This document shows positions 17,896 through 24,774 of a stretch of 24,865 bases of DNA, one piece after another. The stretch covers positions 1-24,865 of the IMG/VR virus record IMGVR_UViG_3300017917_000682. One strand, written 5' to 3'. A program made the translations under genes and the position numbers. Numbering within the stretch: the first letter of the stretch is position 1; each line of letters starts with the position of its first letter. Source of the stretch: a virus. A model generated the notes under the pieces. That model had not been told where the DNA came from and did not search any database. It saw only the letters and a list, made by a program, of their open reading frames with translations.

Positions 17896-18420
17896 ATGGC
17901 TAAGAAGTTTTATGCCCAAAAAGATGCTCTGGGTTATCCTATTCCAGGGACATTAATGAGTGCGGCTGCTGTCGTACCTCCTGGGAATATTGAGATCCCA
18001 GCAGAAGATATTACTACCGGTGCTCTGCATCCTGGTAAACTGCGGTACTTTGTACGGAAGGATCTCAAAGGAAACATCATCCCTAACTCTCTGATTATCA
18101 GTTTAAAAAGACCTCAGGGTTTGGTGTATGAGTTTCGTCCGGTTTCAGGTGGTCCTGTGGTACCTGCTACAGCGGTGACTTTCATTGTGGACGCTTTAGC
18201 CAATGACGCTTTCTATGTTAAGTTTGGTGCAACTACTGGTCAAACTCCTACCATCACTGTAAACTTTGGTGACGGAACAGCTCCTGTTACTCAAACAGTA
18301 ACTGCTAATCAGCTTCTGACATTTAACCATACATATGCTACCGCTGGTACCTATACAGTTTGGTTTGACTCAAGCGATCCGTTAGTAATTCAAGAATTCA
18401 CAGCCGATATAAATAACTAA
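17896..18420 (+). CDS. PKD-domain phage surface protein
   Basis: A 174-residue protein without a signal peptide. The N-terminal about 85 residues (MAKKFYAQKDALGYPIPGTL, YFVRKDLKGNIIPNSLII) resemble a virion-attached module I recall from Bacteroidota phages. Residues 92-165 form a PKD/Ig-like beta-sandwich with ITVNFGDGTAPV and the hallmark FNHTYATAGTYTVWF. Such domains sit on virions and bind surfaces or carbohydrates. The last residues, LVIQEFTADINN, look like the first strand of a leucine-rich repeat, and the LRR gene begins two bases after the stop in another frame. It is the first gene of the rightward block, so it is probably structural. Confidence 0.78.
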   Translation: MAKKFYAQKDALGYPIPGTLMSAAAVVPPGNIEIPAEDITTGALHPGKLRYFVRKDLKGNIIPNSLIISLKRPQGLVYEFRPVSGGPVVPATAVTFIVDALANDAFYVKFGATTGQTPTITVNFGDGTAPVTQTVTANQLLTFNHTYATAGTYTVWFDSSDPLVIQEFTADINN

Positions 18421-18422
18421 TC

Positions 18423-19247
18423 ATGGGAGCTAAGATCACTACTATAGACAACCTGTTTACCAAACTACCTAACGTTAGATGGGTAAACCTGAATGGTAAT
18501 AAACTTACCAGCTTGAACGCCAAGAACCACCCAAAACTTAATGTATTGCGGGTGAACAAGAACCAGTTGACATCTTTACAGCTGGGTAACAATCCTTTGT
18601 TATACATTTTAACAGCTACTTATAATTCTAATCTCCAGGAAGTGACCACAGAAGGTTCTCTGCCTATATTAGGATCATTTGACGCTTTTAATTCTGCTAT
18701 CAAAAAGGTATCTAACCTGGGCACCCCGTCCACTTTGATGTTTAGTGCCAAGGGGACAATGACGGAAGCTATCAGTTTCACTGCAAACCCTAACCTGTTT
18801 GATGTACGTATCTATGAAGCCACCGGGTTATCGTTTACAAACTACGACACTAACAACCTGAACTTCTTGGTGTTACAGAGTAATACGTTTACTAGTCAGC
18901 TTGATATCAGCAAGTTTACATCGCTCAAATATTTAACTCTCAGCAGCACTAACCAGACTTCTGTATCACTTAATAGTTCTAACCTGGAGTACGTTTATGT
19001 TGGCTTTAATCCTCTGACTAGTGTGACAATTGCACCAGCTGCACTTACTAAACTGGATCAAATAACTTTCTATGACTGTGGTTTGACCGCGTCTGTGGTG
19101 GATTCTATCCTTGTAAGTATGGCTAACACTGCGGTTACAAACGGGTTCATTGATTTATCAGGTGCGTCTAACGCTGCTCCCACTGCTACAGGATTAGCAG
19201 CTAAGTCAACACTTCAAGGTAAAGGTTGGTTAGTAGTTCATAAGTAA
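18423..19247 (+). CDS. Leucine-rich-repeat surface protein
   Basis: A 274-residue protein of irregular leucine-rich repeats of about 20-22 residues (VRWVNLNGNKLTSLNA, LNVLRVNKNQLTSLQLGNN, LKYLTLSSTNQTSVSLN, LEYVYVGFNPLTSVTI). The C-terminus closes with a capping region (FYDCGLTASVVDSILVSMA) and a short tail ending GWLVVHK, seen in phage LRR proteins of Bacteroidota. Such solenoids bind proteins or glycans and would suit host recognition. There is no signal peptide. The start ATG lies 2 nt after the PKD gene stop, and the two read like one protein cut in two. Ser/Thr/Asn-rich composition matches the PKD neighbour. Confidence 0.8.
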   Translation: MGAKITTIDNLFTKLPNVRWVNLNGNKLTSLNAKNHPKLNVLRVNKNQLTSLQLGNNPLLYILTATYNSNLQEVTTEGSLPILGSFDAFNSAIKKVSNLGTPSTLMFSAKGTMTEAISFTANPNLFDVRIYEATGLSFTNYDTNNLNFLVLQSNTFTSQLDISKFTSLKYLTLSSTNQTSVSLNSSNLEYVYVGFNPLTSVTIAPAALTKLDQITFYDCGLTASVVDSILVSMANTAVTNGFIDLSGASNAAPTATGLAAKSTLQGKGWLVVHK

Positions 19248-19465: not shown

Positions 19466-19753
19466 GTGGCAGCACCTAATCCTGTAGATAAAGTGAAGCT
19501 TTGGATATTTCCTTCACTGGTATCCGTTATCGGACTGTTTATTTACCAGGAAATAAAGGAAGTCAAGGCTGATGTAAAACAGTTACTTACGCAGTCAAGC
19601 GTAAACAAGACCCGTATTGATAATCTGGAAAGAGAGGTGTTCAAGACCACATCTGTGTCTTATCCTTATATGCCGGTAGAGATACCGCAACCTGAAAAAC
19701 CAACGCGTGAGGCAACACTGCCTGAAGAGAGAAGACTGATCTCTAAGTACTAA
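19466..19753 (+). CDS. Small membrane protein with coiled coil, GTG start
   Basis: A 95-residue protein with one N-terminal hydrophobic span (LWIFPSLVSVIGLFIYQEI, about 12-30), then a heptad-like stretch (IKEVKADVKQLLTQSSVNK) and a Pro/charged tail. The start is GTG at 19466; no ATG gives a fitting N-terminus and the frame begins 10 nt after the previous stop. Small single-span coiled-coil proteins next to a holin candidate are often lysis accessories or tail-associated membrane proteins; the role here is unknown. Confidence 0.72.
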   Translation: MAAPNPVDKVKLWIFPSLVSVIGLFIYQEIKEVKADVKQLLTQSSVNKTRIDNLEREVFKTTSVSYPYMPVEIPQPEKPTREATLPEERRLISKY

Positions 19754-19763
19754 ACGCGTATAT

Positions 19764-20015
19764 ATGACCTTTAAACAATGGGTGGTTGACCTGTTCAAGG
19801 ATGAACGGGGATCCACCAGCATGAAGCCTGTAATAGGCTTATTCCTATCTCTCTGTCTGGGAGGTACCCTTATTGCCAATTCATTCTCACACGGTGACAT
19901 TAAACCTTCTGACTCTTTAGTAGAGATCATAGGGCTTGTTATTGTAGCCATGGTAGCCGGTGATACACTGGACAAGTTCTCACATAAGAAAAAGAAAGAA
20001 GATGAAGTTAACTAA
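19764..20015 (+). CDS. Holin candidate, two membrane spans
   Basis: An 83-residue protein. A charged start (MTFKQWVVDLFKDERGST) precedes two hydrophobic spans (VIGLFLSLCLGGTLIANSF, about 23-41, and LVEIIGLVIVAMVAGDTL, about 52-69) joined by a polar loop and followed by a Lys-rich tail (DKFSHKKKKEDEVN). Length, topology and position ahead of the GH19 endolysin suit a holin that would open the inner membrane at lysis. I recall similar proteins in Bacteroidota phages. It overlaps the next gene by 14 nt. Confidence 0.7.
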   Translation: MTFKQWVVDLFKDERGSTSMKPVIGLFLSLCLGGTLIANSFSHGDIKPSDSLVEIIGLVIVAMVAGDTLDKFSHKKKKEDEVN

Positions 20016-20634
20016 ATATGCCATCATAGCCCTGGTGGTTATAGGGATCCTTGTGCTTACCCGCCTGGGATGTAACAATGGTTTGGGTCTGTTCACTAAA
20101 CCAGTGGCGGACACTGTAGTCGTACGTGACACCACCTGGGAAGTACACGATAGTCTAATTGTAAAAAAAGTTCCTGTAAAGGAAACCATTTATGACATTG
20201 ACACCCTACCTCCTCAGTATATCCCGGACACTAATTATCCTGCACTGAAAGCCCAGTATGAATTACTGGTACAGCAGATGCTGAGTAAGAATATTTATGC
20301 AGACACCGTAAAGCTGGATACCCTGGGGTATGTGGCTATAGCGGATACCGTACAAGAGAATAAACTCCAGAACCGTGGTATCCATTACAACTATAAGATT
20401 CCTACTATCACTGAGAAGATCACTATTACTAAACAGGCTCCTCAGAGAAACCAGGTCTACGTAGGACTTGGACTGAACACCAGCAAAACGTTTATGCCCC
20501 AGGCTGTAGAGGCTGGTCTTATTCTGAAGACTAAGCGTGACCAGATCATGGGTATTAATGCTGCTTCAGACATTAACGGAAACATCACTTATGGATTCCA
20601 GAGCTACTGGAAAATTGGTAAAAAACCCAAATAA
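20002..20634 (+). CDS. Membrane-anchored periplasmic protein, possibly spanin-like
   Basis: A 210-residue protein from the ATG at 20002; the frame is open to 19960 but that part lies inside the holin gene. An N-terminal span (YAIIALVVIGILVLTRLGC) may be an anchor or lipoprotein signal. The periplasmic part has Asp/Val repeats (DTVVVRDTTWEVHDSLIVKK) that look like an extended rod, and the C-terminus ends in beta-hairpins (VYVGLGLNTSKTF, GLILKTKRDQIMGINAAS). Position between holin and endolysin suits a spanin-type lysis protein that disrupts the outer membrane. It also resembles unnamed Bacteroidota phage membrane proteins, so the role is inference. Confidence 0.68.
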   Translation: MKLTKYAIIALVVIGILVLTRLGCNNGLGLFTKPVADTVVVRDTTWEVHDSLIVKKVPVKETIYDIDTLPPQYIPDTNYPALKAQYELLVQQMLSKNIYADTVKLDTLGYVAIADTVQENKLQNRGIHYNYKIPTITEKITITKQAPQRNQVYVGLGLNTSKTFMPQAVEAGLILKTKRDQIMGINAASDINGNITYGFQSYWKIGKKPK

Positions 20635-20839: not shown

Positions 20840-21439
20840 ATGAATTTAGAAAAACTGAAAGGACACATTCCTGACACAGTGATCGCACAGATCCCGGAAG
20901 TTATGGAGAAGTTTCAGGTGAACACACCACTTCGTCTAGCTCACTTTCTGGCTCAGTGCGGACATGAGTCTGGAGGATTCCGTCTTACACAAGAGAACCT
21001 AAACTACTCTGCTAAAGGTTTGATGGGAATCTTTAAAAAGTATTTCCCTACAGCTGCTTTAGCTAATGCTTATCAGCGTCAACCTCAGAAGATTGCCAAC
21101 CGTGTTTATGCTTCCCGTATGGGTAATGGCCCTGAAGCTTCTGGTGAAGGATACAAGTTCCGCGGACGCGGTTATATCCAATTGACAGGTAAGCAGAACT
21201 ACACTGCATTTGATGCTTCTGTACCAGAATCTATTGTAGATAATCCAGACTTAGTAGCTACTAAGTATCCACTGGCTTCTGCTGCATGGTTCTGGAGCAA
21301 GAACGGTCTGAATAAGATTGCTGATGAAGGAGCTACTGATGCTGTAGTAACTAAGGTGACTAAGCGTGTAAACGGAGGAACCATTGGTCTTCCAGATCGT
21401 ATTAAACATTTCAAAGAATACCATAAACTCTTAGCATAA
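20840..21439 (+). CDS. GH19 endolysin (chitinase/lysozyme fold)
   Basis: A 199-residue glycoside hydrolase family 19 protein, here expected to cut the host cell-wall glycan at lysis. The acid catalyst is E43 in FLAQCGHESGGF, a second Glu (E52) lies in TQENLNYSA, and GYKFRGRGYIQLTGKQNY (about 104-121) is the family's core motif; the end has the TKRVNGGTIGLPDRI block. There is no signal peptide, so export would need the holin candidate at 19764. The stop overlaps the next ATG (TAATG), so the 41-residue peptide is translationally coupled. Confidence 0.93.
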   Translation: MNLEKLKGHIPDTVIAQIPEVMEKFQVNTPLRLAHFLAQCGHESGGFRLTQENLNYSAKGLMGIFKKYFPTAALANAYQRQPQKIANRVYASRMGNGPEASGEGYKFRGRGYIQLTGKQNYTAFDASVPESIVDNPDLVATKYPLASAAWFWSKNGLNKIADEGATDAVVTKVTKRVNGGTIGLPDRIKHFKEYHKLLA

Positions 21440-21604: not shown

Positions 21605-22252
21605 ATGAGAGTGTATGCAATGAATGCCTACACCTGGATGAAGGAAAGGATTGCAATGTTGTTTGTAATCCTTGTTCTTATCTGGACTATGGCAGCTTTA
21701 AGTTTTCAGGTGTTCATGGTATACCTGGAGTTTTCTGGTAAAGACCAGACTATTAAAGAGATCGTTGACTGGTTCAACGTTACGTTTGATGGTACCTGGA
21801 AGAATAACCCAAAGAACATATGGTATGAAGAACCCAAGGTTATTCATGTCACCAGTGTTTCTAATAAGGTGGTAGTAGGTTCAGTTGCCGGTAACCGGAA
21901 TATAGAGTTTGGTGTAAAGAACATGATAGAGGAAGTGCTGCAGGAGAAAGAATATGAGCTGGATACAACAGCCAAACTAAAACTGTCTGCACAGATTGTC
22001 TATCTGGATGTTCTTAAAACCCAGTCCAGTTTTTCCGTACTGCATAAGAATAAAGAATCTGTAGTGATCAGACTACAGGGTCAGCTCTTTGAAAATAATA
22101 AGCTTAAGAAGAAAGCTACAGTGGAAGAATCTGCTGATGAGGTGAGTATGAGCACGCTCCTGATTGACCAGGGAGGTAAGTTCAACCAACAGAATCTGAG
22201 TTCTGCATTGAAGAAAGCTTCTAGTTCACTTGTAAACAAACTAATAGAATGA
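21605..22252 (+). CDS. Membrane-anchored protein of unknown function
   Basis: A 215-residue protein with one N-terminal span (IAMLFVILVLIWTMAALSFQ, about 17-36) and a soluble part of mixed alpha/beta type. Helical segments such as EFGVKNMIEEVLQEKEYELD alternate with strands (LSAQIVYLDVL, SVVIRLQGQLFE). The GGKFNQQNLSSALKKASSSL end is like secreted lipoprotein-assembly domains (CsgG/LptE-like folds) and like phage proteins I recall from marine Bacteroidota, but no family can be named. The stop makes an ATGA overlap with the signal-peptide protein downstream, so the two belong together. Confidence 0.72.
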   Translation: MRVYAMNAYTWMKERIAMLFVILVLIWTMAALSFQVFMVYLEFSGKDQTIKEIVDWFNVTFDGTWKNNPKNIWYEEPKVIHVTSVSNKVVVGSVAGNRNIEFGVKNMIEEVLQEKEYELDTTAKLKLSAQIVYLDVLKTQSSFSVLHKNKESVVIRLQGQLFENNKLKKKATVEESADEVSMSTLLIDQGGKFNQQNLSSALKKASSSLVNKLIE

Positions 22253-24063
22253 GAATACTCTTAGTTATATCCGTACTTCTTTTAACTGTTGGAGCTTACG
22301 CCCAGAACCCTATTAAGTTCAGGCTAAGCTCTGAAGTTTTTACAGAGCCTAAGGACACTGTAAAGTTTAACATTAATGGTCAGAACCTGAAGAAGGGTGA
22401 CCAGTTTGTAATGTACATTTCTGGTGCCGGTAATGGTAACACTACCACCCGCCAGCTGCTGTTTGATTTACAGTATGACAACAACGCTCTCACTTTAAAT
22501 AGTATAAACAACACTGGTACGGGTGGTAATGGTGGGATACTTCCCCAGGGATCTAACGCCCAGGAATCTTTGTTTCAGTATCCAGGATATTCTTTTGCCA
22601 GAAATAGTAATAACACTACTAGTAATGGTACAACTAACTATCAGTTTGCCCAGTATCAGTATGTAGCAGGCGGACCATCTACTATTGTCAGATATAATCT
22701 GACCTGGTCTGGTACCGCTGGTATGCCTTATGGAGGATACTGGGGATTTATTAAGCTGGTATTTACAGTGAAGTCTTCTTTAGTAGGGTTTAACGTAAGT
22801 CCTGTTCAGCTAAACTTTGTAGCTGGTTGGAACGGTCAGGGAGTTTTAGATCCCACCTTTCAGGAGAACCCTCTTCAGACTCAGATCTACCTTAATCCAA
22901 ACTTTGATTCTTACGTAAACGCCAAGGTGGATATCAATCAGAATCTAACCAGTATAGCTCCAATGAAGGTGTTATTCATGGATACCACTACAAAGGTGGG
23001 GGATCTGTTTGATATAACAACAACTGGTCAGGTGAATGTAGATAACACCAAGCTTAAACCTAATACAGTGTATAGAGTGCTGGCTATGGTGAATATGGAT
23101 AAGCTTTATCAGTTATACAACAGTGCTGTCACTGTATCAGACTTTACCGGCCCGCAAAATGAGTTTGTAAAGACGGGGCTAGATGGTACACCTGCGTTAG
23201 TCAACATGACTACTGGTGCCAGTTTCCTGGCTGCTGATATGAACAATGACAAGAAGTTTGATGGTGGGGATCTGCCAAAACTTTTAGCAGCAGCTGTATC
23301 CCAGGATACATTGATTCAACTTCCTCAGGGATACACTCCTGGTACAAACGGCTTTATGTCTGTATGGACATTTAGAGATACGGCATTTAATAACATGACA
23401 CCTAACTCATGGAAAACCGTAGATCCTGGTACAGGTGTTCTTTTTAAGACCGGAGCTATTGGTGAACACCTGCCGCTCAATCTGAAGTATTTGTTGTGGG
23501 GAGACGTTAACCGTTCCCATAGTTCTCAGGTGGTTCGTAATAACACCACTGTTGTGAGCAGTGCTCCTCCTTCATTGATTACGTCTGGTACCATGACCAA
23601 TTCTATGAACACTGGAGTAAACTTTGGCGGTGTCATGAATGAAGTGCAGACTATAGAAGTAAATCTGAATAATGTAACGGTTACCTCTAATACTATCAAT
23701 ATTCCTGTAAGTGTAGATACAAAAGGTGTAAACCTTTCTGCTTTACAGTTCGAGTTCCAGTATGATCCTACTAAGATAAAGTTTGAGGAACTGAAACTTA
23801 ACCTGCCAAATACCTGGTACACGTTTGTAAACAGTAAAACCGGCAAGGTGAAGTTCGGTGCTCTGGACAGAAGTGCGGAAAATCCGGTAAGTGGTGTGTT
23901 GACCCCGTTTACACTGAAGTTTTCTACCCTGGTACCAGGTGTAGATATTCTTTCTACAGTGAAGGTTACACCTACAATGGATGCCAGTGATAAGAACGGC
24001 AACCAGGTGGGTATTACTCTTAACACCACAACAATTAGATTAACTGGTTATAATAACTTCTAA
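22249..24063 (+). CDS. Secreted protein with dockerin-like loops and cohesin-like domain
   Basis: A 604-residue protein beginning with a signal peptide (MRILLVISVLLLTVGAYA, predicted cleavage after Ala18). Residues 20-300 are beta-rich, Asn/Gly/Thr-rich and of unknown fold. At about 329-340, ADMNNDKKFDGGDL has the calcium-loop spacing D-x-N-x-D-x6-D of dockerins, and GDVNRSHSS near 418 is a second, shorter dockerin-like loop. From about 480 to 600 (INIPVSVDTKGVNLSALQFE, FQYDPTKIKFEELKL, VSGVLTPFTLKFS) the sequence resembles a cohesin-type beta-sandwich. It probably acts outside the cytoplasm as an assembly or surface-binding protein, possibly on the virion or on infected cells. A phage gene with both cohesin-like and dockerin-like parts is unusual. 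It lacks a membrane anchor. Confidence 0.78.
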   Translation: MRILLVISVLLLTVGAYAQNPIKFRLSSEVFTEPKDTVKFNINGQNLKKGDQFVMYISGAGNGNTTTRQLLFDLQYDNNALTLNSINNTGTGGNGGILPQGSNAQESLFQYPGYSFARNSNNTTSNGTTNYQFAQYQYVAGGPSTIVRYNLTWSGTAGMPYGGYWGFIKLVFTVKSSLVGFNVSPVQLNFVAGWNGQGVLDPTFQENPLQTQIYLNPNFDSYVNAKVDINQNLTSIAPMKVLFMDTTTKVGDLFDITTTGQVNVDNTKLKPNTVYRVLAMVNMDKLYQLYNSAVTVSDFTGPQNEFVKTGLDGTPALVNMTTGASFLAADMNNDKKFDGGDLPKLLAAAVSQDTLIQLPQGYTPGTNGFMSVWTFRDTAFNNMTPNSWKTVDPGTGVLFKTGAIGEHLPLNLKYLLWGDVNRSHSSQVVRNNTTVVSSAPPSLITSGTMTNSMNTGVNFGGVMNEVQTIEVNLNNVTVTSNTINIPVSVDTKGVNLSALQFEFQYDPTKIKFEELKLNLPNTWYTFVNSKTGKVKFGALDRSAENPVSGVLTPFTLKFSTLVPGVDILSTVKVTPTMDASDKNGNQVGITLNTTTIRLTGYNNF

Positions 24064-24066
24064 CGT

Positions 24067-24456
24067 ATGAAAAGGAAAGATCCATTAAATATTCTGCTGC
24101 TTTTATATCTAGGTAGTCTTCTGTTAGGCGTATTGTTAATAGAAGCCTGTCGTAAGATAGCCACGCCTGTACAACCTATAGATCTGGGTGTCCAGTCTGT
24201 GTCTACAGGAATTAAGTTTATTAATCAATCAGGGAATGCTGTTACAGCTGAGTTCCAAACTACACCTGGTGCTAAGTATTCTATCCAGGTGATTCCATTT
24301 GGTAAAGATGTCCCGGCTTTTAAAGACGGGTTTACAGCGTCTGATACTATTACTAAAAGATTCTATGAGTTAAAAGACCTGCCTAAGATGAACTATGATT
24401 TTGTACTGATAGATGTGGCAGGTAAAGAAATAAAGTATCCAATCATCATTAAATAA
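24067..24456 (+). CDS. Membrane- or lipid-anchored protein with small beta domain
   Basis: A 129-residue protein. The hydrophobic N-terminus (NILLLLYLGSLLLGVLLIEAC) may be a membrane span or a lipoprotein signal with Cys28 as the lipidated residue; the lipobox is imperfect. The soluble part is a compact beta domain (TGIKFINQSGNAVTAEF, FVLIDVAGKEIKYPIII). It lies 3 nt after the secreted cohesin-like protein and probably works with it at the cell envelope. No family recognised. Confidence 0.7.
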   Translation: MKRKDPLNILLLLYLGSLLLGVLLIEACRKIATPVQPIDLGVQSVSTGIKFINQSGNAVTAEFQTTPGAKYSIQVIPFGKDVPAFKDGFTASDTITKRFYELKDLPKMNYDFVLIDVAGKEIKYPIIIK

Positions 24457-24462
24457 AAACCT

Positions 24463-24774
24463 ATGTCAGAAGAACAAAAAGAGTCCACAGGTACCTCTCT
24501 GAAGAATATCATTCTTGGTACCGTATCTACCATCACCTTAGGTGTAGGTACATGGGTGACTACTAAGCTCACCGGTGGAGAAGAAGACAAAGCTCCAGCT
24601 GCTACAGCAGCTCCTGCTCCTGTGATCAATATTACTAACTCTAACCAGCAGTCTCAAGCTGCCGGTGGTGGTAAGACTGTGGTCATCAAGGAAAAGTCTG
24701 TACCTGCAGCTGCTCCTGCAGAGAAACCTAAACCTAAGAAAGATGAGTTCCTAAAAGAGGAACCTAAATGGTAA
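24463..24774 (+). CDS. Small membrane protein with Ala/Pro/Lys-rich tail
   Basis: A 103-residue protein. Residues 12-36 are weakly hydrophobic (SLKNIILGTVSTITLGVGTW), then come an Ala/Pro linker, a polar Asn/Gln stretch (INITNSNQQSQAAGGG), a short strand (KTVVIKEKS) and the end KPKPKKDEFLKEEPKW. I recall this N-terminus and PKW-type ending from unnamed Bacteroidota phage proteins. The KPKPKKD segment also occurs in the peptide at 20644-20811. The role is unknown; a membrane-linked, partly disordered scaffold is possible. Confidence 0.7.
   Translation: MSEEQKESTGTSLKNIILGTVSTITLGVGTWVTTKLTGGEEDKAPAATAAPAPVINITNSNQQSQAAGGGKTVVIKEKSVPAAAPAEKPKPKKDEFLKEEPKW

Follow-up and report, generated by a model that had tools for sequence, protein, structure and literature searches.

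A phage-encoded secreted cohesin-family protein within a conserved cassette of envelope genes

Why would a phage encode a secreted protein with a cohesin domain? Bacteroidota phages abound in fresh water and guts, and how they cross or alter the outer membrane of these hosts is poorly known. The question is raised by a gene in a 24,865-nt virus record (IMGVR_UViG_3300017917_000682, positions 1 to 24,865), the whole of which was analysed and is called the window here. Replication genes lie on the minus strand of the window, and the plus strand carries a block that includes a GH19 endolysin. At the start of this plus-strand block, a PKD-domain protein gene (17896-18420) adjoins a gene for a leucine-rich-repeat protein (18423-19247, +). 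The features relevant to the argument are as follows.

19466-19753 and 19764-20015 (+): holin-like TM proteins, named from topology only
within 19960-20634 (+): spanin-like protein, named from topology only
20840-21439 (+): GH19-type endolysin (Pfam 1.1e-9; PHROG endolysin 1.1e-71)
21605-22252 (+): YajG-like (Lipoprotein_16) protein with an N-terminal TM segment; 4-bp ATGA overlap with the cohesin gene
22249-24063 (+): cohesin-family secreted protein P0001, 604 aa (ORF, conservation, Pfam, structure match)
22249-22305 (+): signal peptide, residues 1-19 (by pattern; predicted helix 2-16; Q19 invariant)
22306-22893 (+): N-terminal beta-sandwich, about residues 20-215, probably a second cohesin-like domain
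23095-23295 (+): putative dockerin-like helix/loop/helix module, residues 283-349, with loop 1 degenerate and loop 2 intact (pLDDT 40-60)
23236-23271 (+): dockerin-type calcium loop DMNNDKKFDGGD, residues 330-341 (ligand positions kept in 25/25 relatives)
23500-23526 (+): invariant partial loop GDVNRSHSS, residues 418-426 (conservation)
23644-24060 (+): C-terminal cohesin domain, residues 466-604 (Pfam, AlphaFold2 model, PDB matches)
24067-24456 (+): lipoprotein-like protein with a predicted T9SS sorting-domain-like beta-sandwich (invariant Cys; PF18962 in the L004 homologue; profile scan)
24463-24774 (+): small one-TM protein with a conserved C-terminal Trp (EEPKW)

The cohesin fold and the calcium loop

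The open reading frame at 22249-24063, which a first-pass annotation had taken for a secreted phage protein combining cohesin-like and dockerin-like elements, exists as described, and its Sec-type signal peptide is conserved, with the boundary residue Q19 invariant in 25 relatives. The proposed C-terminal cohesin-like beta-sandwich was borne out by structure prediction: an AlphaFold2 model of the window protein (pLDDT 75.6, pTM 0.49) is all-beta over residues 466-604, where it forms the nine-stranded jelly-roll of cohesins. The best PDB matches of the model are all cohesins (E 3e-10; target-normalised TM 0.77-0.81 over the domain), including Archaeoglobus 2xdh, the C. perfringens GH84C/GH33 modules and the clostridial type I cohesin 6kgf, the predicted fold being that of a cohesin and not an unrelated one. 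At the profile level, PF00963 (Cohesin) matches the window protein with E=5.6e-4 and 20.6 bits, under the curated cut-off of 24.1, and it matches 24 of the 25 relatives with a best E of 6.5e-10; a relative in locus L005 (25.6 bits) and Flavobacterium phage immuto (36.6 bits) score above the cut-off. Nothing useful for the window protein came from PHROGs, from searching the PDB by sequence only or from scanning genome contigs with a single sequence. The C-terminal domain has a cohesin fold, and dockerin binding by it is putative. Pfam Cohesin also matches the N-terminal region in several relatives, from which the N-terminal beta-sandwich is probably a second cohesin-like domain; in the PDB structure search the model was aligned with cohesin dyads, and a profile-profile comparison of the N- and C-terminal domains gave a weak match.

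Is the same chain also a dockerin? The perfect dockerin-type calcium loop that had been claimed is present at residues 330-341, and its ligand positions are conserved: D330, N332 and D341 do not vary among the 25 relatives, 24 of which also have D at position 338, and position 334 is N, S or D. The loop is followed by a predicted helix (341-349), in a region that was modelled with low confidence (pLDDT 40-60). The calcium-ligand pattern D-x-[ND]-x-[DNS]-x3-[DN]-x2-D is matched by this loop only, and shuffling the window protein 20,000 times produced the strict pattern in 0.1% of cases and the loose pattern in 0.5%. In a count over all fetched loci (11,264 ORFs), the pattern turned up in 119 cohesin-family proteins and only 3 others, two of which are secreted neighbours of the same gene cassette, one of them a C-type lectin. 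The loop is unlikely to have arisen by chance.

In a canonical type I dockerin, two F-hand calcium loops, each with a helix after it, are spaced about 30 residues apart. The window protein has one intact loop. The second, partial loop that had been pointed out, GDVNRSHSS at 418-426, is indeed there and invariant at D419, N421 and S423, but it lies 89 residues from the intact loop, has no acid at position 12 and is unable to complete a calcium site. Pfam Dockerin_1 (PF00404) does not match the window protein and matches 1 of the 25 relatives (E 5e-4). By its missing Dockerin_1 match and its incomplete second loop, the window protein is not a canonical dockerin; the dockerin-like description was right about the loop, and a dockerin as such is putative. 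Homology with proteins of immuto and of locus L087 suggests that a degenerate first dockerin half (AVTVSDF...) precedes the intact loop.

A separate exported dockerin-like partner was not found by the loop scan in P0001-type loci. In the 254-kb phage-like contig L087, a secreted protein (L087:11284-12513) carries the calcium loop, has no sorting domain and is encoded beside the same cassette, which makes it a candidate there for a dockerin-like protein that pairs with the cohesin protein. Proteins matched by Dockerin_1 in large Bacteroidota phages (L192, L193, L194, L195, L196 and immuto 191, L197:8963-11488) contain one or two EF-hand/dockerin-like half loops (DKNHNGEIDAEDF); we rejected them as partners because they have no signal peptide. 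The gene for immuto 191 lies near terminase and capsid genes, shortly before the terminase and a T4-like gp20 gene.

A six-family cassette next to lysis genes

The cohesin gene had been described as overlapping the gene for a membrane-anchored protein and preceding a putative lipoprotein gene. It shares an ATGA with the upstream gene, whose product has an N-terminal TM segment, and a lipoprotein-like gene with an invariant Cys begins at 24067. These neighbours belong to a cassette of six families in the order YajG-like protein, cohesin protein, lipoprotein, small TM (EEAPKW) protein, CsgG-like protein and Ser-rich presumed outer-membrane barrel. Among the fetched loci with at least four cassette members (143 loci, some records being present twice), the genes lie on one strand in 143/143 and in the canonical order in 139/143, with gaps of a few bases from the YajG-like to the cohesin gene, from there to the lipoprotein gene and on to the EEAPKW gene. 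The fixed place of the cohesin gene in this outer-membrane cassette supports a link between the cohesin protein and envelope genes. In a second arrangement, two cohesin-family proteins are encoded; one such second cohesin (L129:4693-6987) contains a C-type-lectin-like region (Pfam 5.5e-4, just under the cut-off). The window holds the first four members together with the endolysin, two holin-like genes and one spanin-like gene, and the record ends before the CsgG-like position; we infer the CsgG-like and barrel genes of the window's phage from its relatives. The first-pass annotation had not mentioned the cassette because most of it lies past the end of the record.

What are the neighbours? For the upstream protein, PF03923 (YajG, Lipoprotein_16) scores 13.2 bits in the window (cut-off 25) and 28.3 bits in the L003 homologue, and 18 of 23 relatives are matched. 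The TM part is fused to the YajG-like protein in 69 loci and missing from it in 62, of which 21 have a separate TM ORF. The lipoprotein family appears to have a fold like that of the T9SS sorting domain: PF18962 (T9SS type A sorting domain) reaches 27.4 bits in the L004 homologue (cut-off 27), and nearly all weaker matches in a scan with the sorting-domain profile fall on the protein at the lipoprotein gene position, the window copy (24067-24456) itself having no match in Pfam, the T9SS domain included. The CsgG-like protein has about 239 residues. Its model, built from the relative at L003:10822-11538, has the CsgG fold, and its 22 best PDB matches are all CsgG (E 2.6e-7 to 3e-5), followed by PelC. 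Since Pfam CsgG matches neither this protein nor its relatives and the global TM-scores are only about 0.4-0.5, we call the CsgG-like pore putative. Pfam and PDB profile searches gave no identity for the CsgG-like or barrel families.

Lysis genes are found near or within the cassette in most loci: holin-like genes in 92, tm193 in 74, spanin-like genes in 72 and GH19 endolysins in 71 of 118 distinct loci. Homologues of the window's two holin-like genes and of its spanin-like gene adjoin the cassette in 43, 92 and 72 of the 118, respectively. The holin-like and spanin-like names come from topology, not from family matches, and PHROG gave no match for the L003 homologues of these proteins.

A version of the cassette is carried by an isolate, Flavobacterium phage immuto (MW353176), with cohesin proteins 14 and 15 and lectin 13. 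As in the cassette, a cohesin domain is accompanied by the same neighbours (EEAPKW, CsgG-like, barrel and YajG-like), and proteins 14 and 15 jointly cover the window protein. In contrast to the window, the cohesin protein is split over two genes, there is a fusion to a true T9SS sorting domain, and a separate C-type lectin (immuto 13, 1.9e-15) carries the same calcium loop. The fusion of cohesin to a clear T9SS sorting domain is found in immuto 15 (5e-9) and in L087 (1.9e-11). In structural comparison with viral proteins, the closest match over the full length of the window protein is a phage protein labelled 'Secretion system C-terminal sorting domain' (E 1.2e-24); the next two, judged by their lengths of 243 and 363 aa, are presumably immuto 15 and 14. 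The immuto cohesin proteins have been annotated by name only, the accessible literature gave no function for them, and a paper on Baltic Flavobacterium phages makes no mention of immuto or of cohesin.

What the cassette may do for the phage

The reading that we favour, and to which we give an even chance, is that the window protein, exported through Sec, acts on the surface as a calcium-dependent, adhesin-like protein of cohesin type, forms the outermost component of an outer-membrane complex that the phage encodes, and remodels the surface of the infected cell. What makes surface remodelling probable to us is that the secreted cohesin protein always travels with the same outer-membrane genes next to lysis genes. 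In this reading the cassette would be expressed late, and an envelope-spanning complex for export or anchoring would be built from the CsgG-like ring, the barrel and the YajG-like protein, which often has an inner-membrane tether in its own TM segment. The cohesin protein would be shown on the infected cell via the adjacent lipoprotein, a putative display anchor with a fold resembling the T9SS sorting domain that is fused to cohesin in related phages. Cohesin/dockerin-type contacts, intra- or interchain, could hold the resulting surface layer together in a calcium-dependent manner, and the layer would present binding modules, such as the C-type lectin in immuto. The likely benefit would be a remodelled cell surface that blocks competing phages or sticks cells and debris together.

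An alternative that we consider rather improbable is that the cassette is itself lysis machinery, in which the CsgG-like/YajG-like complex spans the envelope and, as infection ends, breaches or weakens the outer membrane of the Bacteroidota host, the cohesin protein serving as its structural or calcium-controlled plug or cap. The frequency of holin-like, tm193, spanin-like and endolysin genes around the cassette would fit such a role, as would the inner-membrane tether of the YajG-like protein, which recalls spanins, and the CsgG pore of phage Melnitz, which has been proposed as a lysis regulator (PMC9004378). However, cohesin, C-type lectin and T9SS sorting domains serve adhesion and display, not lysis; endolysin and spanin-like genes are already present in these loci; and in immuto the cassette lies several kb from the annotated peptidoglycan hydrolase.

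The pairing of cohesin and dockerin elements had also prompted the idea that the protein polymerises. A secreted scaffold whose chains join by means of their dockerin-like loop and cohesin domain would account for the presence and conservation of both elements in one chain, and two cohesin-like domains per chain are likely; but with a single intact loop, no Dockerin_1 match in the window protein, no exported dockerin-like partner in P0001-type loci and intramolecular packing equally possible, we judge it unlikely. That the protein is a virion component (a tail or decoration protein) merely resembling cohesin is very improbable, although phage virions often carry Ig-like sandwich domains: its signal peptide is conserved, and its gene belongs to an operon for envelope proteins and does not lie among tail genes. 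Export for the virion, which had been floated, is unlikely, since it fits badly with a cleavable signal peptide and with a fixed position beside outer-membrane and lysis genes.

Returning to surface remodelling, we tentatively extend it to an undescribed envelope-spanning phage apparatus that is widespread in Bacteroidota phages. With an inner-membrane-tethered YajG-like protein, a CsgG/PelC-like ring and a barrel as its parts, it would coat the infected cell, at about the time of lysis, with a surface layer of cohesin/dockerin type that sometimes bears a lectin. If true, phages would have their own counterpart of a cohesin-dockerin surface assembly, supplied through a curli-like or T9SS-like route.

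Known counterparts and possible ancestry

Clusters with CsgG/CsgF (curli, T8SS) are known in pelagiphages and phage Melnitz, where roles in sibling capture or lysis have been proposed (PMC7029224, PMC9599517, PMC9004378). They share with the cassette a phage CsgG-fold protein inside a conserved surface-secretion block. They differ in having recognisable CsgG/CsgF, curlin repeats, FecR and adenylate cyclase, whereas in the cassette CsgG is seen by fold only and the secreted protein is the cohesin protein. The PelC/PelB pair is similar in that a CsgG-family ring protein adjoins a presumed barrel, and PelC is among the fold matches; however, PelC/PelB exports polysaccharide, and no polysaccharide genes were noticed around the cassette. 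The non-cellulosomal and clostridial type I cohesins among the PDB matches (2xdh, the GH84C/GH33 modules, 6kgf) have the same fold but are cellular, while that of the window is phage-encoded and occurs in tandem with a dockerin-like module that has a single loop, and with an outer-membrane cassette. In the literature outside subscription journals, we found no papers on phage cohesin-domain proteins or on a cohesin-bearing block.

Scans of viral contigs yielded at least 128 relatives of the cohesin protein and at least 494 of its CsgG-like neighbour, and no full-length relative of the former was present in 394 other Bacteroidota genomes sampled. The cohesin family looks phage-restricted, in keeping with the phage origin assumed for the protein in the first-pass annotation, and a dN/dS of about 0.04-0.2 indicates strong purifying selection on the gene. 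As a fixed, phage-restricted block in which a CsgG-fold protein and a type IX-sorting-like lipoprotein are combined with a cohesin/dockerin surface protein next to lysis genes, the cassette is a candidate for superinfection exclusion, infected-cell aggregation or outer-membrane opening. And where did it come from? A search for host origins returned only L087 and L088, which are phage-like contigs binned in MAGs, and a distant pair of genes in Ignavibacteriales (L089). This CsgG-YajG pair hints at a possible cellular ancestor of the phage pair. On the Ignavibacteriales chromosome, the genes for a lipoprotein CsgG-like and a YajG/CsgG-like protein are adjacent (L089:8986-10289); next come an adenylate cyclase, part of which resembles an extracellular sensor, and a protein resembling outer-membrane barrels.
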